Source: a virus. Taken from it: a stretch of 64,000 nt of DNA. Shown here piece after piece: positions 18,298 to 37,839 of this stretch. The stretch is from positions 1 through 64,000 of the IMG/VR virus record IMGVR_UViG_3300018405_000014. One strand, given 5' to 3'. A program made the position numbers and the translations under genes. How positions within the stretch are numbered: the stretch's first letter is position 1; each line of letters starts with the position of its first letter. The notes below the pieces were generated by a model. That model saw nothing but the letters and a program-made list of their open reading frames with translations. It did not search any database and had not been told where the DNA came from.

Positions 18298-18306
18298 GGC
18301 GGACAT

Positions 18307-18330: not shown

Positions 18331-18337
18331 TATGCTG

Positions 18338-23419: not shown

Positions 23420-24994
23420 ATGAGCGTGCCACCCATTATTCAATATCCGCTCGACCTTACCGGAACGTCAGCGACAAACGCCATTGTAGGTGAAAGTCGG
23501 GACATTGCCAACCTCAACGAGCGGGTCTTCGTGCCCAAAGCCGGACCATTCTACACCGACAGCTTCGTCATTCGTAACGCCGAAACCGGTCAGCCCCTGA
23601 GGCCTGTGGATGACTATGTTCTGGCACAACCGTTTTCTCAAGCGTCGTTGCGCAGCGGCAAGGATGTTCAGTGCGCCGTTGTCCTGAAGACTTCTGTCCC
23701 CATCAGCGTTGAGATGGATTATCAGGTTGTCGGGGGCGAGTATTCCTGGAACCTGGCGGGCTTGGCCGACCTCATTGCCGAACTCGATCTGGATGACCGC
23801 CCTATCAAATGGGGTGCAGTTATTGGTCGACCGACCATGTATCCGCCAGCACCGCACATGCACGACATTGGCGACACCTACGGGTGGGAATACGTCGTGT
23901 GGCAGTTGGAGCGTGTGACGTATGCGATCCTCACAGGTGACGAGGCCTCTCACGAAGAGCTGCGCCAACAGATGCAGACGCTACATGCCCAGCAACAAGC
24001 GATCATCGATGCTCTGGATGCGCGGTTTGTAGGTCACACCAACGACAAAACCAACCCTCATGCCGTCACCAAGGCCCAGACGGGACTGGGTAGTGTCGAC
24101 AACTATCCGACAGCTAACGCCAGTGAGTCGCTGGCCGGGGTCGCCAACAACCGCTTCATGACACCTCTGGGAAGTGCATCGCTGGCAGACCGCATCGCCA
24201 CCGAGCGGGTCAGTGACCATGAAGCCAAGAAGACCAACCCGCACCAGGTAACCAAAGCGCAAGTCGGCCTAGGAAACGTGGATAACTACGGGACAGCCAC
24301 TCAGGCACAGGCCGAATCTGCATCGGTTACCGACAAGTTCATGACGCCTCAACGGACTTATCAAGCCATCATGATCCATGCGGGTGTTCTACTGGATGCC
24401 CACGTCAACAACAAGCAGAATCCGCACAGTGTCACCAAAGCACAGGTCGGGCTTGGAAGCGTCGACAACTATGCCACCGCCAGTCAGGCTGAAGCCCTGG
24501 CGGGTGTGGCCACCAACCGCTTCATGACACCCCAGCGAGTCAAACAATCGATTGACGTCCATGCCGGCAACCTGATCAATGCCCACGTCACCAACACCAG
24601 TAACCCACACCAAGTAACGAAGGCTCAGGTCGGTCTGAGTAACATCCCCAATGCCGTCACTCGCGAGCGAAGCCTTGACAGTAACACCACCCTGCTACTC
24701 GCTGGTGCAATGCGCGATCACCTTATTTCGGGTGACCACGACAACCGGTATGTTCGTCTGAACACTCAGCAGAACACCAGTATGCGGATCGTCAACGGTA
24801 CACTGCAGTCGTATGTCGGTGGTTACTGGCGTCAGGTCTGGCCGGCGGTGTGGAGTAACCACGTTGCACAGGGTTACAACGACCCCTACCTTGGAGAAGG
24901 TACTGGGGTGCAGCTGTTGTCAGCAGGCGGACGCCTGTACGCCACGGTCAACGGTAATTGGCAGCAGATCTGGCCTTCGCAGTGGGCGGATTAA
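23420..24994 (+). CDS. Tail fibre with NPHxVTKAQVGLG repeats
   Basis: A 524-residue fibre starting MSVPPIIQYPLDLTG with GGAG upstream. The attachment region (1-200) is very similar to that of 36406-37839. Four shaft repeats (NPHAVTKAQTGLGSVDNY and relatives) lie at about 210-420. The tip ends with two WxQ(I/V)WP units (GYWRQVWPAVW and NWQQIWPSQW), a small repeat likely to form the distal end. It immediately precedes the radical-SAM cassette and shares identical DNA blocks with the fibre on the other side. Confidence 0.85.
   Translation: MSVPPIIQYPLDLTGTSATNAIVGESRDIANLNERVFVPKAGPFYTDSFVIRNAETGQPLRPVDDYVLAQPFSQASLRSGKDVQCAVVLKTSVPISVEMDYQVVGGEYSWNLAGLADLIAELDLDDRPIKWGAVIGRPTMYPPAPHMHDIGDTYGWEYVVWQLERVTYAILTGDEASHEELRQQMQTLHAQQQAIIDALDARFVGHTNDKTNPHAVTKAQTGLGSVDNYPTANASESLAGVANNRFMTPLGSASLADRIATERVSDHEAKKTNPHQVTKAQVGLGNVDNYGTATQAQAESASVTDKFMTPQRTYQAIMIHAGVLLDAHVNNKQNPHSVTKAQVGLGSVDNYATASQAEALAGVATNRFMTPQRVKQSIDVHAGNLINAHVTNTSNPHQVTKAQVGLSNIPNAVTRERSLDSNTTLLLAGAMRDHLISGDHDNRYVRLNTQQNTSMRIVNGTLQSYVGGYWRQVWPAVWSNHVAQGYNDPYLGEGTGVQLLSAGGRLYATVNGNWQQIWPSQWAD
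23621..23672 (+). repeat. 52-nt direct repeat, copy 1
   Basis: This block in the attachment region of the fibre gene is identical over 52 nt to 36607-36658. The surrounding codons differ between the two genes, so identity at this level suggests recent gene conversion or recombination. The copies flank the radical-SAM cassette. Confidence 0.85.
24434..24477 (+). repeat. 44-nt direct repeat, copy 1
   Basis: Identical over 44 nt to 37054-37097, in the shaft-repeat part of the fibre genes. It is a second exact block shared by the two fibres that flank the cassette. Confidence 0.85.
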
Positions 24995-25091: not shown

Positions 25092-25607
25092 ATGCTCCAG
25101 CGATTGGAGATGTTCAAATTTTCAGGAATCTGTGAAGATACCTTAGCGGTGGAGGATGTCATTGCCAGTGCCCATGTATACGAGCAGAACATGATCAAGG
25201 TGGTTCGCAACAATGCGTCTTATGTAGTCAATAACTTGAACGAATACCTTGAGCTTTCGACCTACCCGATTAAGATCGAGGGATATGAGCGATTCAATTC
25301 GGTCATGTTTCGCGAATGCAAGGCGCTGGCGTCCCACATGAAGCACCAGGGGTTTGTCAGTTGCCATTTGTTCTTGTCGCCCAAGGCCTCGGTAAGTTTT
25401 GCCATGCACACTGACCCTGACGATGTCGTTGTTCACATGGTCAAAGGGCGTAAGCTCTTTGAATCACCCGACGGTGTTCTAGAACTCAGTGAAGGTCAGT
25501 CGATCTACATCCCACGCAACTATCCGCACCGAGCAATCAACACCGAGGATTCTATCATGTTGAGTTTTGGGTTGGAATTGTTCACTGAGCAAAAATTATG
25601 GGCATGA
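25092..25607 (+). CDS. JmjC/cupin-type Fe(II) oxygenase
   Basis: A 171-residue protein (start MLQRLEMFKF, GAGG upstream). The core is a double-stranded beta-helix: HLFLSPKASVSFAMHTDPDD, then VVVHMVKGRKLFES, then IYIPRNYPHRAIN. H106, D108 and H146 are placed like the HxD...H iron triad of JmjC/cupin-4 hydroxylases (YcfD/NO66 type), and K121 follows the VKGRK strand as in that family. It may hydroxylate an amino-acid side chain. The radical-SAM gene begins inside its last codons, so the two are coupled. Substrate unknown; the neighbouring peptide at 26640 or a tail protein are candidates. Confidence 0.65.
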   Translation: MLQRLEMFKFSGICEDTLAVEDVIASAHVYEQNMIKVVRNNASYVVNNLNEYLELSTYPIKIEGYERFNSVMFRECKALASHMKHQGFVSCHLFLSPKASVSFAMHTDPDDVVVHMVKGRKLFESPDGVLELSEGQSIYIPRNYPHRAINTEDSIMLSFGLELFTEQKLWA

Positions 25608-26638
25608 ACAAGACCATCTACATCAAGACCACGGGTACCTGCAATCTTGACTGTCATCATTGCTTCACCAACGGGAAGAACGGCGACAAGACGCAGTTTG
25701 ATCCGATGGTCACAGCTGACTGGGTCCGGTCATTTATGGCCAAGTATCCAGTAGGAACACACTACCACATGGAGTTTCATGGTGGAGAACCGTTTCTGGT
25801 GCCACTCGAAAAGCTTAAGGCTTTTGCCGATCAGTTCATCGACAACCCACATGTCTCGTTCTGTGCAAACAGTAACCTGACATTCAAGTTGAGGGAGGAG
25901 CATATTCTTTTTATGCTCGATTACTTCGACGGGTTTATCGGCACAAGCTGGGACCCATGGATTCGATGGGCGAACGATAAACAGTTCAACCTCTGGAAAA
26001 GTAACCTTGAGTTGCTCCGGAGTAGGGGTATAGGCATTGCGCTTAAAGCCTCGGTCAGCCGTGCTTTGCTGCAGATGACTCCCGACTGGTTCATCGATCA
26101 GATGGAAAGCTTTGCAGTTGAAGAAGTGTCACTCGAGCGCCTGACCTTCGATGGGAACGCAACCGCCAATCGGGATGTATTCCCCGACAATGAAGAGCAG
26201 GACAATTGGTACCTGGCCCTGTACCAACGCTATAAACAGCGAAAGCCAAGGGTCCGGATCAAGACCCTCGACATCATCGAGGAAAAACTCAAGAACAATA
26301 TCGTCAAGGTCGACACCAATTGCCGTAATTGTGAACAGAACCTTGTAACCATCAACTCAGACGGATCGCTCTCAGGTTGTCCAAACGCAGCCGCTAAGCT
26401 CCATCACGCCAAGATAGAAGACGGTGTGGAAGCTTTTCTGGTCTCGGACGGTCGGGTAACCGAGATCGCTACCGAATTGACTTGGGGTGATGGTTGCCTC
26501 GGATGCGATGTGTTTGATCTATGTGGCGGTGATTGCCACAGACTTCCATGGCAAGATGGGCGATGCGGTGGGTTGAAAAACACCCTGCGCTTCCTGTCTG
26601 GCCGAAACACTCACAGTAACCTGATTTTGAAGGTGTAA
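25598..26638 (+). CDS. Radical SAM protein with SPASM-like C-terminus
   Basis: A 346-residue protein. C15, C19 and C22 (CNLDCHHC) bind the SAM-cleaving 4Fe-4S cluster, and HGGEPF (about 57-62) is the SAM-binding GGE motif. The C-terminal third has NCRNCEQN, then SGCPN, then GCLGCDVFDLCGGDCHRL: a SPASM-like set of cysteines for auxiliary clusters, as in sulfatase and peptide maturases. It starts 10 nt before the oxygenase stop and ends one base before the small protein 26640. I infer peptide or protein side-chain modification. Confidence 0.85.
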   Translation: MGMNKTIYIKTTGTCNLDCHHCFTNGKNGDKTQFDPMVTADWVRSFMAKYPVGTHYHMEFHGGEPFLVPLEKLKAFADQFIDNPHVSFCANSNLTFKLREEHILFMLDYFDGFIGTSWDPWIRWANDKQFNLWKSNLELLRSRGIGIALKASVSRALLQMTPDWFIDQMESFAVEEVSLERLTFDGNATANRDVFPDNEEQDNWYLALYQRYKQRKPRVRIKTLDIIEEKLKNNIVKVDTNCRNCEQNLVTINSDGSLSGCPNAAAKLHHAKIEDGVEAFLVSDGRVTEIATELTWGDGCLGCDVFDLCGGDCHRLPWQDGRCGGLKNTLRFLSGRNTHSNLILKV

Positions 26639-26639
26639 C

Positions 26640-27179
26640 ATGACTGAACAAATAACTCGTAACCGTCTAGCGGTCCAAGCCAACAGCCGGATTCGTGACC
26701 GCTGCAACAGTGGTATTTCGTGGGGCACCAACAGTTATCCGGCCAACTCGTTGTCGTGGTGGTTTGGTGGCACGACAGCAGGCCGTGGTGAGTCCTTGTC
26801 TCGCGATAGTTTCAACGCCGGCGATACCGATGCCAGCCAAGTCGTGGAGCGCCTGCGGTCATTCGCCAACATCTTTGCGGCTATCCGTCGGACGCGCATC
26901 GTCATTTACCGCACCCATCATCAACTCGGCAGTGAAGTGATCTATGATGGGACGGCGGTGGCACACACGGCGTACTCGGTGGGGGCGTTCGCCAACGGTG
27001 TGCCAGTATCTGCAGTTCGCAATGGCGTGACAATGGATCTCGGGATGCTGAACGATAGTATCGATGAACTGTACAGTGCCTACGTATCCAATTGCCGCAA
27101 CACCACCCTGGACCTGACCAACACGGTCTGTCATTCAAGCTGTCACAGTAACTGCCATACAGCCCGCGGTCGACGTTAA
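26640..27179 (+). CDS. Small protein with CHxxCHxxCH tail: candidate substrate
   Basis: A 179-residue protein starting MTEQITRNRL, 10 nt behind a GGTG site. Residues 1-160 are polar with a helical centre. The end reads VCHSSCHSNCHTARGRR: C164-H165, C168-H169 and C172-H173 at exact 4-residue spacing, then a basic RGRR terminus. Cys-His repeats at a C-terminus beside radical-SAM and oxygenase genes are what one expects of a ribosomally made peptide whose tail is modified. It could instead bind metal directly. It has no signal peptide. Its role as substrate is a hypothesis. Confidence 0.55.
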   Translation: MTEQITRNRLAVQANSRIRDRCNSGISWGTNSYPANSLSWWFGGTTAGRGESLSRDSFNAGDTDASQVVERLRSFANIFAAIRRTRIVIYRTHHQLGSEVIYDGTAVAHTAYSVGAFANGVPVSAVRNGVTMDLGMLNDSIDELYSAYVSNCRNTTLDLTNTVCHSSCHSNCHTARGRR

Positions 27180-27194
27180 ACCAGGAGCAGCACC

Positions 27195-27917
27195 ATGGAA
27201 CATCAAGAAAAGAAAGTCATCGTTACTCCGGCACCCATTCCAATGGATCTCTTGCGGTTGAAGTTCACCGAAGATGTTCATTACGTAATCGACTACAGTG
27301 AAAGTAAGTTCAAGGGGAAGGTTCTGCTCACGTACCTGACCAACCTTAACCTGAACTGTGAGATCAAGTTTCCCGATCTCGAATCAGAGCTACAGGTGTT
27401 TAAAGAATATCTGTCTCTTCCAAGTATGGTGAATACGCCGCAGTTTGAAAGCATCATCATTCATCTGCTACTCGATATCATGGCCGTCCCCAATGCCCTG
27501 ACATTCGACCCAACTCAATTCGTCATCGAGAACGCAGAGGTTCTTTCCCGCTGGTTGACTAACGTCTCCATGCTACCGGCCTTCGCCCTACACTGCCACC
27601 CTAAGCTTAAGGATCAGGTAGGTAAGTACGAGGAGGTGGCGGACGATCTGCGAGGGATCAACTTCGTCAATCTGGTCAAGCATCCTGATTTCCCACTGCT
27701 CATTGATGAGATCCCGGAAAGCGACTGGTGCTGGAACCGGACTTTCTTTAACGAGCCGTGTTTTGCTGGTAAGAAGATGTTTGAGTTCTTCATGGATAAG
27801 AATAACCCTTACTTTATCTGTCTGCTGGCAATGGAAGATCAGCTCGAATCCGGTAGGTTCCTTGATGCCCTATCGTCTACAGTTTCCAACCTAGCTACTC
27901 TGCCCGAAGGAGTGTAG
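27195..27917 (+). CDS. Unknown cassette protein (240 residues)
   Basis: A protein starting MEHQEKKVIVT with CAGGAGCAGCACC before the ATG. It appears mostly helical and acidic, with no cysteine cluster, signal or known domain. It sits 15 bp after the candidate substrate gene and one base before 27919, so it is part of the same operon. It might be a recognition, chaperone or scaffold protein for the modification enzymes; I see nothing that proves this. Confidence 0.6.
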   Translation: MEHQEKKVIVTPAPIPMDLLRLKFTEDVHYVIDYSESKFKGKVLLTYLTNLNLNCEIKFPDLESELQVFKEYLSLPSMVNTPQFESIIIHLLLDIMAVPNALTFDPTQFVIENAEVLSRWLTNVSMLPAFALHCHPKLKDQVGKYEEVADDLRGINFVNLVKHPDFPLLIDEIPESDWCWNRTFFNEPCFAGKKMFEFFMDKNNPYFICLLAMEDQLESGRFLDALSSTVSNLATLPEGV

Positions 27918-27918
27918 T

Positions 27919-28983
27919 ATGTATCATTTTATCAACCGTGTCTATGTGGACACATCGCTACTGCTCGACCATGACGCAAAGCGAATGACCATCGGTAAAC
28001 AAATCGGGTATGAATACGCCAAGGTGAGTGAATTTGATCCAGAGGGCGGTGTCCAGCTGTTCTACGCTGAGTCTCTGGATGCTGTCGATCATAAGGCTTT
28101 CAAAGACGCGATGGTCCAAGCGGTATCCAGCGATGAGAAGACCACCATCTTCTGTGATTCCGATACGTACGTGCGCCTGTACGGTATGTTCATCAAGGCT
28201 CTTTTCCCCAATATCGACTTCGACACCTTCAAGTGGATCATGGTCTGTAAGAAAGCGATGTTCAACAGTTCGGTATCGTCACGCGGTGAACCCAGCGTCG
28301 ATGTCCTTTCTAAGCTGGTGATTAATGGGGCTGTAGTAAAGGCTGTCTACGACAGTGAAGAAGAACTTCAGGACATCATCGATGAGCTGGTCCGTGACAA
28401 TGCCGAAGAGCTTTCGCTTGAGTGGCAGATCATCCGACTTCGACTTGATGGAAAATACGGTAAGATCCCTCGGGTAACCAAGAACATCCTGCGCAAGATC
28501 GCACTGTCGAACGCACACGATGCTCTGGAAGTGTGGGCTCGTCATATCACGCGGCCAGAGAACTGGGATATGGCAGGTGCTGATATAGACACCTTGCTCA
28601 ACGGCCAGACTGTATTTGAAGGGTGCCTGAGGCTCCCTCATCTATCGTCTACGGTACTCATGCGCCCGGGTCTTTACGCCTACCGTCCTACCGATGAATG
28701 GCTCATGGGTATGCTCCGTGAAGCCATTAAGTTAATGACTCATCTTGAGGATGAGTCCTCGGCCAAGCGTGCTGCCAAGATTCTCGAGTTACTCGCCGAT
28801 ACCCGTCCCATGTCCGACCCTGCAAACTGCATGGATCGTATCCAGGTTATGTTCAACGGTCCGATGCGCATTGCTCTCGCTATGCGTGATAACGGTAAGT
28901 ACGACGAGAGCCTTATCAGGCTAATCCTTAGCCTCGACGACGATAAGCTTAAGGATATACTTGAAGGGGCTGCCTGGCGATGA
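27919..28983 (+). CDS. Unknown cassette protein (354 residues)
   Basis: A protein starting MYHFINRVYVDTSLLL. It has an alpha/beta N-terminal half (EKTTIFCDSDTYVRLYG near residue 75) and a long helical C-terminal half. No radical-SAM cysteines are present. Its stop overlaps the ATG of the next radical-SAM gene (ATGA), showing tight coupling. Function unknown; it could be a partner protein of the enzymes. Confidence 0.6.
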   Translation: MYHFINRVYVDTSLLLDHDAKRMTIGKQIGYEYAKVSEFDPEGGVQLFYAESLDAVDHKAFKDAMVQAVSSDEKTTIFCDSDTYVRLYGMFIKALFPNIDFDTFKWIMVCKKAMFNSSVSSRGEPSVDVLSKLVINGAVVKAVYDSEEELQDIIDELVRDNAEELSLEWQIIRLRLDGKYGKIPRVTKNILRKIALSNAHDALEVWARHITRPENWDMAGADIDTLLNGQTVFEGCLRLPHLSSTVLMRPGLYAYRPTDEWLMGMLREAIKLMTHLEDESSAKRAAKILELLADTRPMSDPANCMDRIQVMFNGPMRIALAMRDNGKYDESLIRLILSLDDDKLKDILEGAAWR

Positions 28984-29978
28984 TAAAGATCCCACTGGTA
29001 GATATACTCCAGGAGAAGAAGGGCCGATTCAAAGAGGTGCACCTAATACTCTTTGAATTCTGTAACATGAGCTGTTCGTTTTGTCACCAGGACCATAGTT
29101 CCAAAGTGGGTGTCGATCACCACGCTATGTTCGATAAGGTACAGACCCTGATTGGGGTGTCGGACCCAAACGTTCCTGTCGTAGTGAACATCACCGGTGG
29201 GGAATTGTTCATGGACGATATCGCAGATGAGTACTTTGATACTTACTACGAGATCGGGTCAAGGATCATCGAGCATTTCACTGAAGTCAAATTAGTCTTT
29301 GGGACTAACCTGGTCTACGGCGACGCGGATCGCGTGAGATGTCTTGTGGAGCGCCTCAGGGAGAAATGTAGGGAAGTCTACCTGGCTACCTCTTACGACC
29401 CGGCAGGGCGCTTCACCGGCACTCAGAGAGAGGTGTTCTTCAGAAACCTCAACCAGCTGCATGATCTGGTAGATACTGTTAACGTAGTGCTCACCAAACA
29501 GAACATCCATCTCTTCCTTGACGGTAAGGAAGGTCCGGAGTTCAAGGACATGTGTGATAACTTCAGTGTCTACTTTGACCACTACATTCCAAGTCAGATG
29601 TACGAGTACATCCAACCGGATGAAGACTTGATTGGTCAACTGTACCTCAACATCAATGAACGGTACCCGAACTCCTATCCCATTCGGGACTGGAAGGAAA
29701 ACAAGTTCAATGAGACCACCTGCCGCTCGACTAAGATCATCAATAAAGATGGTGTAGTCAGCACCTGCTGGTCGGAGGCTGGTAAGGATGCCATCCTGGA
29801 TGAGGCAGAAGGTCTGCGCGCCAAGGACGCCGCAGAGGTTGCGTTCGTTGAACATTACGAATGCTTCAGTTGCGAGTTCTACTCTAGATGCGGCCTGCGT
29901 TGCTTCCTGCACGATACAGTACTGGGTGAGAAGTCGAAGGTCTGCTCGATAAAGGAAATGTTTAAAGCCATCTTGTAA
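28980..29978 (+). CDS. Radical SAM protein with SPASM-like C-terminus
   Basis: A 332-residue protein. C28, C32 and C35 (CNMSCSFC) form the cluster motif, followed by ITGGELF (about residue 75) as the SAM motif. The C-terminal region has CRSTKIINKDGVVSTCW, then CFSCEFYSRCGLRC and a final Cys near residue 323, consistent with auxiliary iron-sulfur cluster binding. It is the last gene before the hairpin at 29988-30013, so it ends the first half of the cassette. Probably another side-chain modifying enzyme; substrate unknown. Confidence 0.85.
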   Translation: MIKIPLVDILQEKKGRFKEVHLILFEFCNMSCSFCHQDHSSKVGVDHHAMFDKVQTLIGVSDPNVPVVVNITGGELFMDDIADEYFDTYYEIGSRIIEHFTEVKLVFGTNLVYGDADRVRCLVERLREKCREVYLATSYDPAGRFTGTQREVFFRNLNQLHDLVDTVNVVLTKQNIHLFLDGKEGPEFKDMCDNFSVYFDHYIPSQMYEYIQPDEDLIGQLYLNINERYPNSYPIRDWKENKFNETTCRSTKIINKDGVVSTCWSEAGKDAILDEAEGLRAKDAAEVAFVEHYECFSCEFYSRCGLRCFLHDTVLGEKSKVCSIKEMFKAIL

Positions 29979-29987
29979 CGCGGCATA

Positions 29988-30013
29988 AGGGCAGGGGCCA
30001 CGGCCCCTGCCCT
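29988..30013. terminator. Strong hairpin inside the radical-SAM cassette
   Basis: AGGGCAGGGGC and GCCCCTGCCCT give an 11-bp stem with a CACG loop; CATA lies at its left and TATG at its right. It separates the two halves of the cassette. Confidence 0.75.
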
Positions 30014-30019
30014 ATGTCT

Positions 30020-30092
30020 GCTGTAAAGTCAGGCTGGCGTGATAACCTTTTTATTGTCTATAATAGACGGGATTAAGTTAAAACTTTACAGC
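30020..30092 (+). promoter_or_regulatory. Nested palindromes around a TATAAT: candidate promoter/operator
   Basis: GCTGTAAAGT (30020-30029) and ACTTTACAGC (30083-30092) are a perfect 10-bp inverted repeat. Inside it lies GTCTATAATAGAC (30056-30068), a 13-nt palindrome containing TATAAT (30059-30064). No good -35 is seen at 17 bp. The arrangement fits an operator or a structured RNA controlling the second half of the radical-SAM cassette, directly after the terminator. Confidence 0.45.
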
Positions 30093-30128
30093 CATTCTAC
30101 TATGACTTATTTCAAACCAGCCATTTAA

Positions 30129-30150
30129 TGCCAGGCACATTGTCCTGGCA
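30129..30150 (+). promoter_or_regulatory. Leader hairpin next to ribosome binding site
   Basis: TGCCAGG-CACATTGT-CCTGGCA is a 7-bp stem with an 8-nt loop. It is directly followed by GGGGG, the probable ribosome binding site of the radical-SAM gene at 30164, so folding could influence translation. A short frame, MPGTLSWQGD, starts at 30128 and stops at the TAG (30158-30160) just before that gene. Confidence 0.45.
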
Positions 30151-30163
30151 GGGGGATTAGAAA

Positions 30164-31252
30164 ATCGACCTCATAGTCAAGCCCACACAGCTTTGCAATT
30201 TCCGCTGCACGTTCTGCTCCAGTACGCATCTGAGTGAGGACGCTACAGCCACCGTATCCCTTGATCAAATTGAGCAGTTTATTAAGAGGTACCCTGAAAC
30301 CCGCACAATCATCATCAATGGTGGCGATCCCCTGATGATGCCTCCTCAGTATTACTGGGATATGATCGAAATACTGGATCGGTTGGACTCTGATGCGTCA
30401 ATTAGCTTTACCTCCAATCTCTGGCCTTTCTTTGTGAACCCCGAGAAATGGGAAAAGCTTTTTAACCATAGACGAATGGGTATCACCACGTCGTTTCAAT
30501 ATGGTGACAAGCGTTTGAAGGGGGATGGTACCCCACTGACTGAGTCTGAATTCATTGCGGTGAGTGACCTCTTCCTCGAGCGCGTCGGTTACCGGCCTGA
30601 ATTCATTGCGGTGATCGATAGGGACAATGCCCATACCGTCCTCGACACCGTGCGACTAGCTCGATACCTTGGAGTTGAAGCCAAAGTCAACTATGCCGTT
30701 GCTTCGGGTCCCGTGGTTGATAAAAAAGGGATCACCATGGGCAATGAAGATCAGATGTATACTCAAGCCGACATGTATAAGGCATACATCGAGATCTACG
30801 ATGCAGGACTGATGGAATGGGAATTCAATACCAAGCAGATGGTCAAGCGCATAAAGGGGCAACAAACGATCTGTCCACTGTCCCGTGATTGCGATGAGGG
30901 CATCCGTACGTTACAGCCTGGTAACGGATACTTCTCGTGTGGGGCTTTCGGCGATGACCTGAAATACCCAATCGACTTTCAACATGAGATGGCCGGAGGC
31001 TTCGTAACTCCCCTGCGCAACCAGGAAGAACTCTGGTCGATGAAAGAAGATTGCAATACATGCCCCATGTTCCTCATCTGCAATGGTTGTCGTAAAACAA
31101 TAACCGATACCAAGCGCCTTGGCCTGGTCGAACATCACTGTAAGACCATGAAGAGCATCGCCCCACGGATCATCGAGATGAACGGGATGCAGGACTACCT
31201 GACCCCCACCCCGTACGTGGACGAGTCTGTCCAACTCATTGCGAGAGGCTAA
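30164..31252 (+). CDS. Radical SAM protein with an unusual start
   Basis: The conserved N-terminus of a radical-SAM protein is clear only if translation begins upstream of the first ATG (30335): IKPTQ-like strand, then CNFRCTFC (cysteines about residues 11, 15, 18), then INGGDPL. An in-frame TAG lies at 30158-30160 and no ATG, GTG or TTG lies between it and the cysteines. AGGGGG is 8 nt before an ATC at 30164, so I propose an ATC start (about 362 residues). Alternatives are readthrough of the TAG from the ATG at 30128, a mutated start codon, or a sequence error. The C-terminus has CPLSRDC, FSCG and CNTCPMFLICNGC, a SPASM-like cysteine set. Confidence 0.65.
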   Translation: MDLIVKPTQLCNFRCTFCSSTHLSEDATATVSLDQIEQFIKRYPETRTIIINGGDPLMMPPQYYWDMIEILDRLDSDASISFTSNLWPFFVNPEKWEKLFNHRRMGITTSFQYGDKRLKGDGTPLTESEFIAVSDLFLERVGYRPEFIAVIDRDNAHTVLDTVRLARYLGVEAKVNYAVASGPVVDKKGITMGNEDQMYTQADMYKAYIEIYDAGLMEWEFNTKQMVKRIKGQQTICPLSRDCDEGIRTLQPGNGYFSCGAFGDDLKYPIDFQHEMAGGFVTPLRNQEELWSMKEDCNTCPMFLICNGCRKTITDTKRLGLVEHHCKTMKSIAPRIIEMNGMQDYLTPTPYVDESVQLIARG

Positions 31253-31311
31253 GTGATGCGGGCTGACAATCTGGCACTGGCAATTGCCATCATCATTTCG
31301 GAGGGTTTGTT

Positions 31312-32241
31312 TTGTCCAAGCCAAGAATAAACCTCAGTCTGAACCCCACGTACTATTGCAACTTTAGCTGTGACTTTTGTTACTTAACGACAGAACAGCT
31401 TAATGACCGGACCCTGTTACCAATCGAGGTCATCGTTGAGCGGGTGGATGAGTTACTTGACCACTTCGAGATAGGTCACGTTGACCTTTATGGCGGTGAG
31501 GTTCTACTCTTACCAGAGGAATATCTACTGGCCATAAAAGAGATATTCCTGTCGAGGGGGATAAATGACATTGTATTAGTCACTAACCTTTCTCATGTCC
31601 CCGATCTTGTTCACGACAGTGACTTCAAGATCTCGGTGTCCTATGACTTCTCGGCCAGGGAGAAGCATGAGAAGGTATTTGAGAACATCATGCTTCTGAG
31701 TAACAAGTTCGTGATGCTTACTCTAGCAAGTCGGGAATTTCTAGACAAGGTGACTCCTGACGAGTATGTCAACACTCTAGCTTCCCTTCCTCATCTATGG
31801 CATGCGGAGATAAAGCCATACAGCTCCAACCAGGCTAATGTTCAACCCGTGTCCTTTAAGGAATTTGAAGAGTTCGTCTGGCAGGTGATCAATCACCCCA
31901 ATCGTAATTTCACCTTCGAGAACGAATGGCAGTTAGAGGATGTGATCAGCGGGGAGCGCAATGCATTTAGTGACGATCACGTTTACATAACCCCTACGGG
32001 TGATCTTGCTGTCCTAGAATTCGACAGCCAGGATCGCGAATACTTCAAAGTAGTCGACGGGATATCCGGTTATTTGGAATGGTGTGAACAGGAGAAAGCG
32101 CGGGTCTCTATGAATGCGATCTGCAATGCCTGTCCCTATTACGGTAAGTGTCTCTCTGAACACTTGAGAGAGGTGGTGGCACTGGATGAATCCTGCAATG
32201 GGTTCCGTGGACTCATAGAGCGCTGGGAGAAACTGAAATGA
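31312..32241 (+). CDS. Radical SAM protein, TTG start
   Basis: A 309-residue protein starting from TTG with GGAGG 7-8 nt upstream (MSKPRINLSLNP). C16, C20 and C23 (CNFSCDFC) form the radical-SAM motif; DLYGGEVLLLP near residue 60 replaces the GGEP string. The C-terminal part has CNACPYYGKCLSEH and a later Cys (ESCNGF), fewer than a full SPASM. It precedes 32238 with a 4-nt overlap. It is shorter than the first two enzymes and probably has one auxiliary cluster at most. Confidence 0.85.
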   Translation: MSKPRINLSLNPTYYCNFSCDFCYLTTEQLNDRTLLPIEVIVERVDELLDHFEIGHVDLYGGEVLLLPEEYLLAIKEIFLSRGINDIVLVTNLSHVPDLVHDSDFKISVSYDFSAREKHEKVFENIMLLSNKFVMLTLASREFLDKVTPDEYVNTLASLPHLWHAEIKPYSSNQANVQPVSFKEFEEFVWQVINHPNRNFTFENEWQLEDVISGERNAFSDDHVYITPTGDLAVLEFDSQDREYFKVVDGISGYLEWCEQEKARVSMNAICNACPYYGKCLSEHLREVVALDESCNGFRGLIERWEKLK

Positions 32242-33305
32242 TGACTGATCCTGCTACATTCACTGTGAACTTCAATCTGGAGATCACTGCCGGGTGCGGC
32301 TATAACTGTCTAGGATGTACAGTCGATAAGAATGGGGCGAATACCCAGCTCGAACCGGAACTAGGCGATCTTCTGCCCCTTCTGGAGGACATTAGATCGA
32401 AAGGCTGGCGCACACTCGAATTGAAAGTAGGGCCAACTGACCTGACCACTGCTGAGAACGGCTTTACCATCCTTGATGATCCTGTCTTCGGGAAGATAGT
32501 CAGCTACTTCAACTTGATCTCAATTAATCTGGCAATGTTGAATGACCATGGCCTTAAAAGGTTAGCCGACAAGCTTGAAGAATTGATCCCTGGCAAATAC
32601 CTGATGGTAGGTACCCCTGTCACCCTCAAGAACATGCTGAATAAGAAATACATGACGCAGTTGAGGGAACGATTTGCCCGCTTCAAGGGTATGTTAAAGA
32701 CCATTACATTCACTCGCATTTACATGACCATCAACGTCGATTCGGATTCCATCCGCCAATTCAGTGACGAGACCTTCGATGCAATCAGCGACAGTAACCT
32801 GACAGAGTTTGATTCGGTAGAATTCGTTTTCACCGATGTGAGGCGTGGCTTTGATAACCTCATGGTTGCCGAACAGTTCAAGCGGGTGACGCGCCAGTTT
32901 TCATCGTTCGTACTTGATCGTGAAAAACGTGTGGCGGGCAGTCATGTCTTCACTCGACTGGTACCTCGTCCACAGGAGGGGTTCGAGTTCACTTACCGTA
33001 CAGGTGACCTCTATACAACGATAACCATGGTTGAAACGCTGACTATCTTTGACGATAAGTACAAACTCCCAAAACCATGGACATTCGAGTCACTGATTGA
33101 CTTCAGGGAAAACCAGTACGCTGATACACTGATAAAGTATTCAGGGCATCCTGAATGTGGCGATTGTTGTTACCTTGACAACTGCTCTCGAAATAACATC
33201 CCGACGCTGATGGAAGAGGCCAGCAGTGATAGGTGCCTGTTCGACATCAAGAACAGGTGGGAACCTGCCTGTCACCTCGAGAATCCGGAAAGGAATATCA
33301 CATGA
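32238..33305 (+). CDS. Radical SAM protein, DK-type paralogue 1
   Basis: A 355-residue protein starting MMTDPATFTV. The motif is GCGYNCLGCTVDK: C20, C24 and C27 followed by an invariant VDK shared with the next two genes. The GGE motif is replaced by KVGPTDLTT. The C-terminus has CGDCCYLDNCSRNN and a further Cys (DRCLFDIK). It overlaps both neighbours by 4 nt. With 33302 and 34320 it forms a trio of recent paralogues, suggesting successive or combinatorial modification steps. Confidence 0.8.
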   Translation: MMTDPATFTVNFNLEITAGCGYNCLGCTVDKNGANTQLEPELGDLLPLLEDIRSKGWRTLELKVGPTDLTTAENGFTILDDPVFGKIVSYFNLISINLAMLNDHGLKRLADKLEELIPGKYLMVGTPVTLKNMLNKKYMTQLRERFARFKGMLKTITFTRIYMTINVDSDSIRQFSDETFDAISDSNLTEFDSVEFVFTDVRRGFDNLMVAEQFKRVTRQFSSFVLDREKRVAGSHVFTRLVPRPQEGFEFTYRTGDLYTTITMVETLTIFDDKYKLPKPWTFESLIDFRENQYADTLIKYSGHPECGDCCYLDNCSRNNIPTLMEEASSDRCLFDIKNRWEPACHLENPERNIT

Positions 33306-34381
33306 AAAAACCTATAGTACAGCATCGCCAGCGCCTGGAGATTGCCCTCGATATTCTAAAGGGATGTGGTCACTCGTGTAGTGGCTGCATGATCGATAAG
33401 GAACTCGGCGGTAGTGCAGAAGACATTCCCCAACTGTACGCTCTAATTCAAGAGATGGTGGCTGATGGTGGGTACGTTGCATTTGACCTTGGTGTAGGAC
33501 CGACTGACTACATGTCTTCGGATAACACCAGTGTCCTCATGGACAACCCAACATTTAGAACCATGGCGCAGATGTTTGACCAGGTTACGTTCAACGCCGC
33601 CTTCCTCGAGAAAGACCTGGACAAGTACGCTAAAATGTGCGAAGAGATCGACGAGGCCTGTCCCAACAAGGCGATTCGATTTCTGATGCCTGCTGCCCCC
33701 GACTTCTTCAAAACAGATAAGTTCGGGACCATGATTGCCAGTAAGCTCCAATACGTCAAAGATACGTTTAAGAAAGCCTACTTAAATGAAGCAGGGTTTG
33801 TGGTCAACTGTACCTCAGACACTGTAAGCGAGAACTTTGACGAATTGATGAAGAACGGCTTTGCAGTGGAGTTCCCCACTGAGAAAGACGATATCCTCAA
33901 TATCCCATATGGTCGGCTACCTTACAAGGATATTATGGTTGGCCAGAACATCAGACGGATGTCCCACCGTATCAGTCAGTTCTACTCTGCTCTCTGTGGT
34001 GTGGATGAGCGCCGCAGGAACCCTGATCTCTGTTACCACACTGGCACTATGGTAAACCTCTGGTACACAGGCGGTAAGCTCTACTGGGTACCTTTCTTAA
34101 AAGATGATTGTCCGTTCCTTGAAGAAGAATTTGTCATCCCTAAGCCCTGGAACATGGAGAATGTTCTAAGTGTTCGTCAGAAAGCGATGAATGAGGCGAT
34201 CGAGTATCTGGAAGGTACTGACTGCATGACATGTGTTTACATGAGCAGTTGTACCGAGAAAGGGATCATTAATATCATGAAACGGTTAGCAATCAAAGAC
34301 TGTATGGTAGGGCTTCAGTATGTCAGAGATGATTCCCAATCGGGGGTTCAACATAACCTTGGAGATCCTTCAAGGGTGTAA
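33302..34381 (+). CDS. Radical SAM protein, DK-type paralogue 2
   Basis: A 359-residue protein starting MKKPIVQHRQR, ATGA overlap with the preceding gene. C22, C26 and C29 are in GCGHSCSGCMIDKELGG. LGVGPTDYMSS stands where other radical-SAM enzymes have GGEP. The C-terminus contains CMTCVYMSSCTEKG and then DCMVGL, matching the pattern of its two paralogues. The upstream in-frame ATG (33233) lies within the previous gene and is less likely. Function: probable peptide or protein modification. Confidence 0.8.
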   Translation: MKKPIVQHRQRLEIALDILKGCGHSCSGCMIDKELGGSAEDIPQLYALIQEMVADGGYVAFDLGVGPTDYMSSDNTSVLMDNPTFRTMAQMFDQVTFNAAFLEKDLDKYAKMCEEIDEACPNKAIRFLMPAAPDFFKTDKFGTMIASKLQYVKDTFKKAYLNEAGFVVNCTSDTVSENFDELMKNGFAVEFPTEKDDILNIPYGRLPYKDIMVGQNIRRMSHRISQFYSALCGVDERRRNPDLCYHTGTMVNLWYTGGKLYWVPFLKDDCPFLEEEFVIPKPWNMENVLSVRQKAMNEAIEYLEGTDCMTCVYMSSCTEKGIINIMKRLAIKDCMVGLQYVRDDSQSGVQHNLGDPSRV

Positions 34382-35333
34382 GTACAGTTGTGTTGGCTGT
34401 ATGGTCGATAAGGAACTTGATCCCGGTCCGTTCGATGAAGATGGACCGGCACTGCTCTCCTTAGTCGATGAGATGAAGGACAGTGGATATGAGCTCAATG
34501 AGTTCACAGTTGGTCCGGTTGATGTTATCGCGTCGAGTGCTGGTACCGCTATCCTGGACCATCCATTGATACAGTCCTTGGCAGATCGATACTGTGGTAT
34601 GGTACTGCCGCTCGCCCTGCTGCAAGAGACAGGCCTTAAGGAACTGTGCGAGAAACTAAACTCCCTATTAAAAGGGAAGCGGTTGAAAGTTGCCACTCCC
34701 TTCCCCGTGAGAAGTATCCGAAATAGAAAACACATCGACCTAATCAAAGACCGGGTGCAGTATATCGTTGATCATCTACCAGATGTCAAGTTCGAGTTAC
34801 TCTACCTCACCGTGAATATGTCAGACGACCCGACTGAACACCTTAGCGATCAACTCGATAAGGAAATTCATGCGTTGGATTTCGGCGTCCGTAAACTGGT
34901 GGAATATGTCTTCCCCCATGCTCGTAAGGGTTTCGATGACCTTGTCAACAGACAGGCATTCTTAAGAGCGTTTACAGGCTTCACTGAGGTCATCCGAGAA
35001 AACCGGTCGCGGTACCTGATAAAGCCTTTGGATGATTCCCTGGAACTCACCTATAGGAACGGGTACCTATATTACACCCCAACACTAATTGAGAAGTTTC
35101 CTCTATTCTCAGATCAATATAGCATTGAACGACCATGGACACGTCATGGGGTCGAAGGACTGGAAGGGAATCTCTATATCGACGAACTTACTCGTCGAGT
35201 TGAGCACGTTACCTGCGGCGATTGTATCCATATCGATCGTTGCGCACGAGGTGACATCCATCTGATAATGACCCATTTGAATTACGACGAATGCCTGGTC
35301 GGGATGAAGAACGATTGGACTATGCCATTATGA
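34320..35333 (+). CDS. Radical SAM protein, DK-type paralogue 3
   Basis: A 337-residue protein starting MSEMIPNRGF. C20, C24 and C27 lie in GCKYSCVGCMVDKELD, followed by FTVGPVDVIAS in the position of the SAM-binding loop. The C-terminus has CGDCIHIDRCARGD and DECLVGMKNDW. It overlaps the previous gene by 62 nt, unusually much, which supports recent duplication or fusion of reading frames in this operon. Next gene overlaps by 4 nt. Confidence 0.8.
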   Translation: MSEMIPNRGFNITLEILQGCKYSCVGCMVDKELDPGPFDEDGPALLSLVDEMKDSGYELNEFTVGPVDVIASSAGTAILDHPLIQSLADRYCGMVLPLALLQETGLKELCEKLNSLLKGKRLKVATPFPVRSIRNRKHIDLIKDRVQYIVDHLPDVKFELLYLTVNMSDDPTEHLSDQLDKEIHALDFGVRKLVEYVFPHARKGFDDLVNRQAFLRAFTGFTEVIRENRSRYLIKPLDDSLELTYRNGYLYYTPTLIEKFPLFSDQYSIERPWTRHGVEGLEGNLYIDELTRRVEHVTCGDCIHIDRCARGDIHLIMTHLNYDECLVGMKNDWTMPL

Positions 35334-35758
35334 CTCCACCTTATAAAGATTTTCAGCGTGTCTACAATCAGTTAATTACGGATCATCCAGATGACTTCAG
35401 TAACATGGAGATCATTGAAGACGATGAGTTGGTGGACAATGCCCTGTCTTATTTCAAGCACGCTACGTTCCCCCTTATCTACCGTAGTAAGAGTTACGCG
35501 GTCGCCATTATCTACGCGCATAAACTCAATGAAATCTACGGTATCGATAAGTACGATATACTGAATGACCCTGATTTATTCCTGGGTCAGGACATGTATT
35601 TCGTACCGTATAGTCAAGACCCTGAGACATACGACCGAATCATGGAACGTCTAATGACCATCCCAAATTGGATTGAGTCAGGGTGGGCCCCTCAGACCGT
35701 TAAGTATTGTCTACTTGAATGTACTGAGGAAGGCATTGCTTCACTTAGCGAGGTGTAA
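35330..35758 (+). CDS. Small cassette protein, unknown
   Basis: A 142-residue acidic protein starting MTPPYKDFQRVY at an ATGA overlap with the preceding radical-SAM gene. It is helical with many aromatic residues and no cysteine pair. Small helical proteins in RiPP clusters often recognise the leader peptide, but this one does not show the recognisable winged-helix pattern of PqqD-like domains, so I leave it unassigned. Confidence 0.6.
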   Translation: MTPPYKDFQRVYNQLITDHPDDFSNMEIIEDDELVDNALSYFKHATFPLIYRSKSYAVAIIYAHKLNEIYGIDKYDILNDPDLFLGQDMYFVPYSQDPETYDRIMERLMTIPNWIESGWAPQTVKYCLLECTEEGIASLSEV

Positions 35759-35759
35759 T

Positions 35760-36320
35760 GTGGAAGTCTTTGAACTCTGGAAGACCCCGATTGTACGCAT
35801 CAATGTTGCGGATCGGTTCAACATGGCAGACTGGACCGATGAGGTGTTCGCACTATACAGCATGACTGGTGGGGAGGACAGCCGCCAGCGCTGCATCGAT
35901 AAAGATTTGTTTCCAGTCATCCTCAGTATGCGCGATGAGGTGATCACTCCGGCAGTGAAACAATTCTGCCTAGATCACTTCAATTACAAGGTTGGGAACT
36001 TCTACGTCGACACCAATGGCAAGTGGATTGTTGAGGGTGAAGGTCTGTATCCACATTACCATCCCGGTTCGGTTGTCTCGGCAATTTGCTACCCAGGTGA
36101 CTCGGTAAATGGCATGACCATGTTCGACCCGAAAGGGAATGCATGTCGTGGTTACCCAAAACCTATGCGGAACAGTGCACTATTCAAAAACTTTACACTA
36201 CAACCCAAGCAAGGGGACATCTATTTGTTCCCGAGTTATGTGCAGCACAGCGTAGCCCACGTCACCGAGGACTTGCGTCTGTCGTTACTGCACGAATACT
36301 ACATCATCGAGGACCTTTAG
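35760..36320 (+). CDS. 2OG-Fe(II) oxygenase-like protein (PF13759 type)
   Basis: A 186-residue protein starting at GTG (MEVFELWKTP) with AGGTG just upstream. The core matches the putative 2OG-Fe(II) oxygenase family seen in T4-like phages: HYHPGSVVSAICYPG (H99, H101), then MTMFDPKG, then GDIYLFPSYVQHSV (H163) and RLSLLHEYY (R173). The iron ligands and the 2-oxoglutarate-binding Arg appear present. It is the last gene of the cassette, which thus both begins and ends with an iron-dependent oxygenase. It may hydroxylate the same substrate as the radical-SAM enzymes. Confidence 0.75.
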   Translation: MEVFELWKTPIVRINVADRFNMADWTDEVFALYSMTGGEDSRQRCIDKDLFPVILSMRDEVITPAVKQFCLDHFNYKVGNFYVDTNGKWIVEGEGLYPHYHPGSVVSAICYPGDSVNGMTMFDPKGNACRGYPKPMRNSALFKNFTLQPKQGDIYLFPSYVQHSVAHVTEDLRLSLLHEYYIIEDL

Positions 36321-36359: not shown

Positions 36360-36405
36360 CTTCTGCTCTCTGGGCGGAAGATCACTTACCTGCTTGGAGT
36401 TCACA

Positions 36406-37839
36406 ATGTCAATTCCACCAATTATTCAATATCCCTTGGATCTCACTGGCACCTCGCCAACGAACCACATTGTTGGGGAAGTCCGTGATATCCTGACCGA
36501 TGCCAATCGGGTCTTTATTCCGTTGGCCGGTCCGTTTTATGCCGACAGTTTCACCATCCTCGACAACGAAACCGGTATGCCGCTACGCCCTGTGGATGAT
36601 TATATCCTGGCACAACCGTTTTCTCAAGCGTCGTTGCGCAGCGGCAAGGATGTTCAGTCGGCGGTCGTGCTTCGTGTATCAGCGCCGATCAGTGTCAAGC
36701 TTGACTACCGTGTAGTCGGTGGTGAGTATTCCTGGAACCTCGATGCGTTGCAGGACCTGATCACTCAGTTGGATCTGGATGACCGCCCTATCAAATGGGG
36801 TTCTGTTCTGGGTCGTCCAACAGCCTATCCAGCAGCCCCTCACATCCATGACATCGGTGATACCTTTGGCTGGGAATATGTCGTCTGGCAACTTGAGCGC
36901 ATCACTCAAGCGATCATGGTGGGCGATGAAGCCTCGCATGAAGAGATCCGTCAGCAAATCCGGATTGTTGAAGAGCAGCTTATTTCGCTCATTGGCAGTT
37001 TGGACAATCGACTGGTCACGCACGTTAATGACAAAACCAACCCCCATGCCACGACCAAAGCACAGGTCGGGCTTGGAAGCGTCGACAACTATGCCACAGC
37101 CACGGCAGCTGAAGCCCTGGCGGGTCTGGTAAACAACCGCTTCATGACCCCAGCGCTGGCCAACACTCTGGCACAACGCATTGCAGCCGAACACGTAGCA
37201 GACCATGAGGCCAAGAAGACCAACCCCCATGCGGTTACTAAGGCGCAAGTGGGTCTGGGTAATGTGGACAATTACCTCACGGCTACCCAAGCACAGGCCA
37301 CTAATGGCACCGCGAACGACAAGTTCATGACGCCCTTGAGGACCAAGGAAGCGATCAATGCCATCGCCGGGAATTTGCTGCAGGCGCACATCAACAACAC
37401 CAGTAACCCACACTCTACGACCAAAGCACAGGTCGGCTTGGGTAATGTGGACAATTACAGCACCGCCACCGCCGAACAGGGTATTTCCACTACGATCTCC
37501 GATAAGTTCATGACGCCTCAACGGACTTATCAGGCCATCATGTCGCACGCCGGAAATGCCCTGAACAGCCACATCGGAAATCTGAACAACCCACACCAGA
37601 CCACCGCAGCACAAGTGGGCGCATACACCACAAGTCAGACCGACACCCTGCTGTCCAGGAAATTGGGTTCGGCTGAGACAGCGGTCAATGCGAATCGTCT
37701 GGAAAACACCACCCGTGCATCAATCCTGTCGGATGCTTACGCAGCTGTCGGAAGCATGGGTAAGCGCAACGTGTTCATCTCCACGGTCGATCCAACCGGC
37801 TCTCAAGGTGCGGTAGGTGATATCTGGCTGACTTACTGA
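36406..37839 (+). CDS. Tail fibre with NPHxVTKAQVGLG repeats (third copy)
   Basis: A 477-residue fibre starting MSIPPIIQYPLDLTG, with TTGGAG before the ATG; a TTG four codons earlier is less likely. The N-terminal 200 residues are nearly the same as in 23420-24994. Shaft repeats (NPHATTKAQVGLGSVDNY, NPHAVTKAQVGLGNVDNY, and two more) follow at about 205-420. The tip differs: it ends with RNVFISTVDPTGSQGAVGDI. Next gene (Gly-rich tip) starts 10 bp later, so the two may make one distal complex. Confidence 0.85.
   Translation: MSIPPIIQYPLDLTGTSPTNHIVGEVRDILTDANRVFIPLAGPFYADSFTILDNETGMPLRPVDDYILAQPFSQASLRSGKDVQSAVVLRVSAPISVKLDYRVVGGEYSWNLDALQDLITQLDLDDRPIKWGSVLGRPTAYPAAPHIHDIGDTFGWEYVVWQLERITQAIMVGDEASHEEIRQQIRIVEEQLISLIGSLDNRLVTHVNDKTNPHATTKAQVGLGSVDNYATATAAEALAGLVNNRFMTPALANTLAQRIAAEHVADHEAKKTNPHAVTKAQVGLGNVDNYLTATQAQATNGTANDKFMTPLRTKEAINAIAGNLLQAHINNTSNPHSTTKAQVGLGNVDNYSTATAEQGISTTISDKFMTPQRTYQAIMSHAGNALNSHIGNLNNPHQTTAAQVGAYTTSQTDTLLSRKLGSAETAVNANRLENTTRASILSDAYAAVGSMGKRNVFISTVDPTGSQGAVGDIWLTY
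36607..36658 (+). repeat. 52-nt direct repeat, copy 2
   Basis: Identical to 23621-23672. Together with the 44-nt repeat it marks recombination between the fibre genes that flank the radical-SAM cassette. Confidence 0.85.
37054..37097 (+). repeat. 44-nt direct repeat, copy 2
   Basis: Identical to 24434-24477, in the shaft repeats of the second flanking fibre gene. Confidence 0.85.

Follow-up and report, generated by a model that had tools for sequence, protein, structure and literature searches.

We analysed a window of 64,000 nucleotides, bases 1-64000 of the 116,699-base virus record IMGVR_UViG_3300018405_000014, and within it a gene cassette at 25092-36320 that encodes radical SAM proteins, iron-dependent oxygenases and a small protein with a repetitive Cys-His (CH) tail. 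The cassette comprises 13 open genes, g1 to g13, all on the plus strand and flanked by two tail fibre genes, fib2 and fib3 (Table 1), as the original prediction from this DNA had it. The genes were also said to be closely packed, which is true of most of the cassette and fails at a 182-nt gap between g6 and g7 that contains a strong hairpin. A second contig, L178, differs from the window at a single base (35484) over 21,385 bases. Judging by its relatives, this is probably a jumbo phage.

Table 1. Features of the cassette and its flanks, in window coordinates.
Feature	Position	Strand	Basis
fib2, tail fibre, immediately upstream of cassette	23420..24994	+	PHROG virion structural / tail / tail-collar-fibre families
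g1, predicted cupin / JmjC_2-type Fe(II) oxygenase	25092..25607	+	PF08007 8.4e-9, PF07883 1.1e-7
g2, predicted radical SAM/SPASM enzyme, usual neighbour of the CH-tail gene	25598..26638	+	SPASM pattern
g3, CH-tail protein, body residues 1 to ~163 and 16-residue C-terminal tail	26640..27179	+	phrog_35144
g3 tail codons (CHSSCHSNCHTARGRR), proposed modification site	27129..27176	+	tail alignment, n=112
g4, conserved partner, usually directly 3' of the CH gene	27195..27917	+	synteny
g5, conserved partner	27919..28983	+	labelled in 53/102 loci; family alignment
g6, predicted radical SAM protein with SPASM pattern	28980..29978	+	motif, phrog_1802
Strong RNA hairpin, g6-g7 gap	29988..30013	+	folding vs shuffles
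g7, predicted radical SAM protein, AUC start	30164..31252	+	PF04055 3.7e-11
g8, predicted radical SAM protein, TTG start	31312..32241	+	PF04055 5.7e-11
g9, divergent radical SAM-like	32238..33305	+	invariant Cys, weak PF04055 in family
g10, divergent radical SAM-like, g9 family	33302..34381	+	motifs, family alignment
g11, divergent radical SAM-like, g9 family	34320..35333	+	motifs, family alignment
g12, small protein	35330..35758	+	phrog_20737 6.6e-40
g13, predicted 2OG-Fe(II) oxygenase, GTG start	35760..36320	+	PF13759 4.8e-12
fib3, tail fibre paralogous to fib2, downstream of cassette	36394..37839	+	identity to fib2
Gp38-like tail-fibre adhesin after fib3	37850..38983	+	PF05268 28.9 bits (cut-off 25); phrog_2056 tail fibre, host specificity

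Seven cassette proteins (reading frames of 324-382 codons) have the CX3CX2C motif of radical SAM enzymes near the N-terminus, the number originally predicted, and all seven also have a C-terminal CX2CX5C auxiliary-cluster motif. Five further six-frame matches to CX3CX2C occur in the window, none of them within an open frame longer than 137 codons. The full SPASM cysteine pattern, for which we used a consensus with slightly wider spacing allowed (CX9-15GX4C - CX2CX5CX3C - C), is present in 63 of 63 members of the g2 family, in 26 of 48 members of the g6 family and in the window copy of g6. It is absent from all 27 members of the g7 family and all 71 of the g9 family, which have CX2CX5C only. 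Profile searches of the 13 proteins had been proposed as a check, and their outcome is mixed: g7 and g8 pass the Pfam cut-off for Radical_SAM (PF04055, 29.5 bits) and the oxygenases g1 and g13 match their families; g2 (26.3 bits) and g6 (17.7 bits) fall below the cut-off, and g9, g10 and g11 individually have no Pfam match of any kind. g2 and g6 match the radical SAM family phrog_1802 at E-values of 2.9e-53 and 2.8e-32, respectively, and by sequence g2, g6, g7 and g8 are assigned to the radical SAM superfamily. In the g9 family, 12 of 29 members match PF04055 weakly (E≤1, best E 6.9e-5), and C20/C24/C27 and C307/C310/C316/C333 are invariant in the 29 aligned sequences; alignment of the g9 profile with those of g2 and g7 (hhalign) was not significant, and a PDB profile search with g9 returned no radical SAM protein and no other relative.

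The PDB profile relatives of g2 include the anaerobic sulfatase-maturating enzyme anSME, the peptide enzyme YydG and a lipid-acting radical SAM enzyme; those of g7 are anSME and MoaA. g2 does not reach the NCBIfam cut-offs for peptide maturases (YhhB, 44.3 vs 445 bits; PapB, 42.3 vs 340; FxsB, 41 vs 370), and among the matches listed no radical SAM protein of the window approaches an NCBIfam cut-off. g7 proteins are 54-72% identical among Pseudomonas, Burkholderia, Agrobacterium and Sinorhizobium phages.

Both iron-dependent oxygenases of the original prediction, one with a JmjC-type HxD..H core and one with a 2-oxoglutarate (2OG)-Fe(II) core, were confirmed. In g1 the HxD..H triad consists of H106, D108 and H146, present in 53 of 53 aligned sequences, and this iron-binding triad identifies g1, at the sequence level, as a JmjC/cupin Fe(II) oxygenase. 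The PF13759 match of g13 scores 46.6 bits against a cut-off of 27; H163 and R173 are conserved in 37 of 37 family members and H99 in 36, and position 101 is His in 32 and Asp in five, so that g13 is classed by sequence in the 2OG-Fe(II) oxygenase family PF13759. The remaining proteins are less readily placed. The predicted model of g4 has a pLDDT of 88.7 and no PDB match at E≤0.001, and g4 and g5 have no detectable relationship. g12 gives a non-significant Pfam match to lactococcin G-beta (13 residues, E 0.11). Family scans of the Pfam, PHROG and NCBIfam type recognised no peptidase, exporter or sulfatase family among the cassette proteins scanned.

The small gene for which a Cys-His end had been predicted is g3, whose C-terminus reads CHSSCHSNCHTARGRR. 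The 16-residue tail follows the consensus (CHxS)3-RGRR-stop. A search of viral contigs with the pattern CHxxCHxxCHxxRxR gave at least 120 stretches; in 102 of the 120 loci listed (124 cores) the open reading frame (ORF) ends with RR exactly 16 residues after the first Cys. The other 18 loci, mostly simple Cys/His repeats, were set aside as not tail-terminal. A control with the motif swapped, HCxxHCxxHC, gave 21 stretches with 23 matches, none of which ended at residue 16. In 112 tails (111 distinct proteins and the window copy), Cys or His at positions 1, 2, 5, 6, 9 and 10 and Arg at 13, 15 and 16 are invariant; the search pattern fixes the Cys and His residues and partly Arg13 and Arg15, and leaves Arg16 free. 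The pattern-free positions are Ser4 (103 of 112), Ser or Asn at 8 (109), Ser12 (100), Gly14 (103) and Arg16 (112). Ser and Arg in the tail each use both of their codon families (TCN and AGY; AGR and CGN), and hence selection on the tail acts on the protein.

CH-tail proteins are 124-364 residues long, except for two short and probably cut ones. Among 43 non-redundant loci the median pairwise identity is 27% for the bodies, 48% for g2, 59% for g7 and 81% for the tails, eight of whose 16 positions are fixed or partly fixed by the search pattern. Of 132 bodies, 92 are recovered by an iterative profile built on that of the window; most of the others belong to a shorter form, often in tandem pairs. 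We aligned g3 with its relatives in 64 rows chosen out of 78 non-redundant sequences; 54 of the 64 match phrog_35144, a PHROG of unknown function, and the window g3 matches no Pfam family. An AlphaFold2 model from this alignment has pLDDT values of 87-98 in the first 16 ten-residue blocks and of 74 and 53 in the last two, suggesting a confidently folded body and a disordered tail. Six viral models match that of g3 at E≤0.001: a 178-residue protein, probably that of Pseudomonas phage pPa_SNUABM_DT01 (DT01; 47% identical), an uncultured phage protein, three proteins of Myoviridae sp. ctijX18, and a 296-residue protein of Agrobacterium phage Atu_ph07 that has the length of gp170 (12% identity, TM score 0.60).

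The proposed comparison with related phages found the cassette in named phages, and cassette genes recur around the tail in a set of 102 loci. When 50,697 phage records were searched by tblastn, g1, g4 and g7 were each found in the same seven records: DT01, Burkholderia phages FLC6, FLC8 and SURPRISE13, Atu_ph07 (two records) and Sinorhizobium phage Phosso. g2 is in those seven and in two Thermus phages, g9 in four records, and g3 only in DT01. A tblastn search of phages with the tail peptide gave no match, though tails are present there; composition filtering is perhaps the reason, and DNA patterns were used instead. The loci of DT01, SURPRISE13, Atu_ph07 and Phosso encode a cupin, a radical SAM protein and then a protein ending in CHxSCHxSCHxxR[GS]RR. 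In a scan of nine whole records the CH pair is found at the cassette in these four phages, with two stray matches in Atu_ph07, and is absent from Campylobacter phages CP220 and CPt10, Klebsiella phage Eowyn and Thermus phages Cumys and phiLo. Read backwards, it gives four matches in the nine records (two in Eowyn, one each in DT01 and Phosso). CP220 and CPt10 have 11 radical SAM matches each, and Eowyn has none. In SURPRISE13, two genes annotated as dihydrofolate reductase lie within the cassette region (L006 18406-19583). In Cumys, a radical SAM gene directly follows a gene for a His-Xaa-Asp-type repeat protein, by baseplate and collar-fibre genes (L009 6973-9263); the repeat protein may be an independent, His-rich tail component modified by a radical SAM enzyme.

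The association between g2 and the CH gene does not depend on the tail pattern. With g2 as bait we collected 29 loci, one of which (L204) is nearly identical to the window and several of which are contigs also present in the tail-pattern set. The next gene has CH repeats in 27 of the 28 loci with downstream sequence; L215 is the exception, with two variant CH genes elsewhere, and L195 stops at g2. Among the variants, the CH unit is repeated in long tandem arrays in L203 and L207, CNCN replaces the last CH in L214, and L211 and L212 are without RGRR and without a labelled cupin and g6. The last two loci suggested that RGRR might depend on the cupin, an idea that was dropped since L049 and L117 have RGRR without a detected cupin.

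Profiles labelled the cupin in 53 of the 102 tail loci (many of which are incomplete), g2 in 75, g4 in 87, g5 in 53, g6 in 55, g7 in 32, the g9 family in 31 and the 2OG oxygenase in 23. The g12 profile drifted into radical SAM proteins of the g8 type (no ORF labelled by it is 110-200 residues long, and one labelled 305-residue ORF is radical SAM-like), so that its 21 loci contain g8 and/or g12 and the g8 count of one is too low. The commonest order is cupin, g2, CH, g4, g5, g6 and g7, followed by a variable part; in an alternative layout two CH genes precede g9-type genes and g4. Of 69 loci in which g2 precedes the CH gene, 64 have less than 50 nt between the two, and g4 starts between -182 and +54 nt from the end of the CH gene in 67 of 86 loci with g4 downstream.

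Several observations link the CH protein to tail fibres. fib2 and fib3 share 70% identity over 405 residues before they diverge. After fib3 comes the Gp38-like adhesin, after fib2 the cassette, and by this analogy the CH protein may be the tip partner of fib2; the presence of fib3 and the adhesin beside the cassette possibly reflects alternative fibre tips in one phage. At the DT01 locus, nothing is annotated as a second fibre with a Gp38-like adhesin after the cassette. We tested 43 proteins encoded upstream of cassettes, hand-picked from loci with an upstream ORF in reach and mostly shorter than ~1,100 residues: 35 match a tail-fibre PHROG and 16 match Peptidase_G2. Of ten CH proteins scanned, that of L212 alone has a Peptidase_S74 domain (1.5e-11), which follows the body and the CH tail in a single polypeptide. 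The virion proteins of Atu_ph07, detected by electrospray ionisation tandem mass spectrometry, are encoded in clusters, one of which spans coding sequences 170-215 (PMC6102473). Coding sequence 170, the first gene of this cluster, encodes the CH-tail protein. The numbering is consistent, in that gp198 and gp204, given as head genes, coincide with portal and prohead genes.

The tail also occurs on bacterial contigs. A stricter pattern gave 46 stretches in 84,980 bacterial and archaeal species, with the true tail in 12 contigs (15 cores); 11 of the 12 carry at least one labelled cassette gene, and L159 has none in 5.4 kb. Several are Bdellovibrio-like metagenome-assembled genomes (MAGs). In the phylum of a Halobacteriovoraceae MAG, which we take to be Bdellovibrionota from record titles and general taxonomy, the pattern occurs in 10 of 368 genomes, and in none when read backwards. 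One of the ten has a CHCHCH repeat and nine have the true tail with cassette genes. An S74 gene lies within ~16 kb of the cassette in six of the nine, detected by Pfam in G003, G006, G008 and G057 and by a three-sequence in-house profile in G112 and G371; the three cassettes lacking a nearby S74 gene are on contigs of 5.7-11.6 kb. Four of five S74 proteins near cassettes have prepilin-like N-termini by eye, and the fifth is cut off.

We considered whether contamination by phages explains all the bacterial matches, and rejected this. L241 is flanked by a 3-hydroxyacyl-CoA dehydrogenase gene, and genes for cbb3-oxidase and FixG flank L243. In the g7 tree, four Bdellovibrionota proteins group on a single branch (97/94), a group so small that 57 of 500 shuffles equal it. 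Two contigs are probably viral, G004 because of a sheath gene on the cassette contig and L132 because this MAG branches inside the phage g7 tree. The PF03237 terminase was not found in seven MAG genomes, which says little because viral-looking contigs (L132, L145) gave no match either. A radical SAM protein with a B12-binding domain is encoded in the L241 cassette (17072-18808; PF04055 and PF02310), the only copy scanned with Pfam; L243 3769-5478 and L132 3324-5030 look similar by eye, and this adds another class of enzyme to these cassettes. Beside the S74 gene of four bacterial cassettes there is also a conserved protein of ~200 residues ending near RHWVxVK (L241 7198-7824, L243 1130-1726, L254 16954-17505, L255 1563-2153), with no Pfam family in the two copies scanned.

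Two features at the g6-g7 junction may concern expression. The 85-nt segment 29976-30060 has a minimum free energy of -38.9 kcal/mol (z -3.9; none of 200 shuffles as good), and its GC-rich, very stable hairpin, which lacks an evident T-run, may serve in RNA processing or attenuation. g7 lacks an ATG, GTG or TTG start; its AUC is shared by the near-identical L178 and by L179 and L181 (at about position 10001). Other g7 relatives start with GTG, TTG or ATG. The AUC-start copies have purine-rich stretches upstream, and the start possibly serves deliberate low-level translation.

Parts of this picture are in print. The number of radical SAM genes, originally thought exceptional for a phage, is not: six have been published for DT01, where they were read as DNA repair or host metabolism genes (PMC8541153), eight for the Aeromonas giant phage 332-Vera (PMC12390700), and 11 and 12 for CP220 and CPt10 (PMC2853527). 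The last two phages resemble ours in having many clustered radical SAM genes and differ in the absence of the CH pair. In 332-Vera the genes lie in a large structural cluster with five tail-fibre genes, an arrangement called highly unusual; compared by its published description only, it very probably has the same system. The occurrence of many radical SAM genes (6-12) in one phage and their placement among structural genes are thus already known, and their co-location with fibre genes is in print through 332-Vera. Published gene lists of FLC6 and S13 include cupin, radical SAM and 2OG genes (PMC8066314, PMC11898562), and the term 'radical SAM' is absent from the text of a comparative study of 224 jumbo phages (PMC7824862). 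In the excerpts of the cited phage papers we found no CH-tail protein or fibre substrate for these enzymes, and in open-licence PubMed Central papers (bioRxiv excluded) no description of the CH-tail family among the matches listed.

The enzyme families, the tail family, the synteny, the fibre neighbourhood, the one S74 fusion and the Bdellovibrionota contigs are computed observations. We think it somewhat probable that the cassette genes serve to mature a single structural substrate, g3. That the g3 tail is the substrate of the cassette enzymes is strongly inferred and very likely; that the CH-tail protein is fibre-borne is well supported and likely. g3 would be made with its folded body as carrier and a disordered (C-H-x-S)3-R-G-R-R tail. 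g2 and the other radical SAM proteins would abstract hydrogens on the tail and cross-link it, most probably through thioethers that join each Cys to an adjacent residue of its CHxS unit; the oxygenases of the cupin/JmjC and 2OG-Fe(II) types would hydroxylate tail His, Ser or Arg; and g4, g5 and g12 would be recognition or carrier proteins. The finished g3 would be mounted on the adjacent tail fibre as a tip or cap, presenting a hardened, metal-binding or reactive end to the Gram-negative envelope. This would amount to chemistry resembling that of ribosomally synthesised and post-translationally modified peptides (RiPPs), acting on a structural protein. The original prediction had likewise favoured a RiPP-like or virion-protein modification system, perhaps acting on tail tips or on a co-packaged peptide; apart from its argument from rarity, that reading agrees with the fibre neighbourhood, the invariant CH tail next to a SPASM radical SAM gene, the S74 fusion and the Atu_ph07 cluster.

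Known systems offer partial parallels. anSME (4k36/4k37), which acts on Cys or Ser of a protein, is one of the top-ranking solved structures for both the g2 and the g7 profile; the tail motif and the context here are different, and no sulfatase was recognised among the cassette proteins scanned. Oxygenases of the YcfD/MINA53/NO66 type hydroxylate Arg or His of proteins; g1 resembles them in its PF08007 match and HxD..H triad and differs in having just 171 residues and a predicted role. The T-even adhesin Gp38 is a tip protein encoded straight after a fibre gene, as in the window after fib3, but the CH protein has another body and a maturation cassette. Bdellovibrio mosaic adhesive trimer (MAT) fibres, which include S74 and non-S74 surface fibres binding prey (PMC10769870), are like the bacterial loci in being S74-ended fibre proteins of predators, but differ from the S74 proteins near cassettes in the prepilin-like N-termini of the latter. 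The main text of that paper is without the words 'radical' and 'post-translational'.

A number of points weigh against our proposal. The tail chemistry, as predicted from the enzyme families, is tentative and slightly less likely than not. No solved fold matched the g3 body in PDB sequence and fold searches, g9-g11 are candidate radical SAM proteins by sequence, and g7 and g2 resemble the cofactor enzyme MoaA and a lipid-acting radical SAM enzyme, respectively. Where g2 is present with 700 nt or more of upstream sequence (47 loci), no cupin was detected in three, and in two of these the RGRR end is normal. A search for further CH-S74 fusions found only L212's own contig. The presence of gp170 in the Atu_ph07 virion is deduced from the cluster boundary, and gp171 (radical SAM) and gp172 (cupin) fall within the same range. 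A study of phage RP31 identified 32 virion proteins by liquid chromatography-tandem mass spectrometry and names the radical SAM genes of this phage under 'other genes' (PMC5468394). S74 genes are frequent, with 22 matches in seven genomes, counting cassette-carrying genomes only, of which six are near a cassette. Finally, the bacterial CH proteins have, by eye, no obvious signal peptide that would take them to a surface.

The strongest alternative, which we consider unlikely, is a true RiPP: the tail would be a core peptide that is modified, cut off and released at lysis or delivered into the host, with an antibacterial, competitor-exclusion or signalling role. A small gene beside SPASM radical SAM genes is the usual RiPP layout, L203 and L207 have tandem core-like arrays, g2 matches the models for cyclophane and ranthipeptide maturases at 41-44 bits, far under their cut-offs, and g12 has its non-significant lactococcin match. 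The ranthipeptide and cyclophane systems (PapB, YhhB, FxsB) also pair a SPASM-type radical SAM enzyme with a small protein bearing C-terminal Cys repeats. Here, by contrast, the substrate is folded and fibre-linked and its tail runs up to the stop codon, a folded domain of ~110-350 residues would have to act as the 'leader', several radical SAM families occur with a cupin and 2OG oxygenases, and no peptidase or exporter was recognised; the fibre neighbourhood and the S74 fusion indicate a structural protein.

Slightly less probable still is that the CH tail, with its CX3CH pairs, is a metal- or haem-binding tip formed without radical SAM chemistry, the enzymes acting on fibre residues, glycans or a cofactor. 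Metal could be bound by such regular Cys-His pairs, and metal-bound His residues are known at phage spike and fibre tips, but this would leave the adjacency of the SPASM radical SAM gene (64 of 69 loci) and the conserved Ser and RGRR positions unexplained. We give little credence to the idea that the CH protein is a non-virion assembly factor, such as a fibre chaperone, whose tail is a recognition tag with a transient or regulatory modification. Fibre-assembly proteins, too, are typically encoded behind a fibre gene, and the tail is disordered in the g3 model, but the Atu_ph07 virion cluster begins at gp170 and the S74 fusion puts body and tail within a fibre-type polypeptide. Metabolic or DNA-repair roles of the radical SAM genes, as proposed for DT01 (PMC8541153), are very improbable: the enzymes are diverse, with the MoaA and lipid-enzyme likenesses, and CP220 and CPt10 have many such genes without the CH pattern, but auxiliary-cluster motifs in all seven proteins, synteny with the CH gene and fibres, and the absence of any near-cut-off NCBIfam match among those listed speak against it.

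A maturation line for g3 would have consequences beyond this phage. Most known radical SAM chemistry concerns small-molecule metabolism or peptides that are released. The occurrence of the same cassette in many phages and some predatory bacteria suggests an undescribed chemical finishing of attack-fibre tips. In its widest form, the proposal that phages and predatory bacteria share a (CHxS)n-RGRR fibre-tip tail, cross-linked and hydroxylated for recognising or breaching the Gram-negative outer membrane, is a possibility to which we lean a little less than halfway. It provides a concrete substrate and motif for families listed as unknown (phrog_35144, phrog_20767, phrog_31457 and phrog_20737) and can be tested by mass spectrometry on phages already cultured. 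If it is true, receptor-contacting tips are built of cross-linked, non-canonical residues that are invisible to sequence and structure prediction, and the Bdellovibrionota cassettes near S74 genes would link phage adsorption to bacterial predation.

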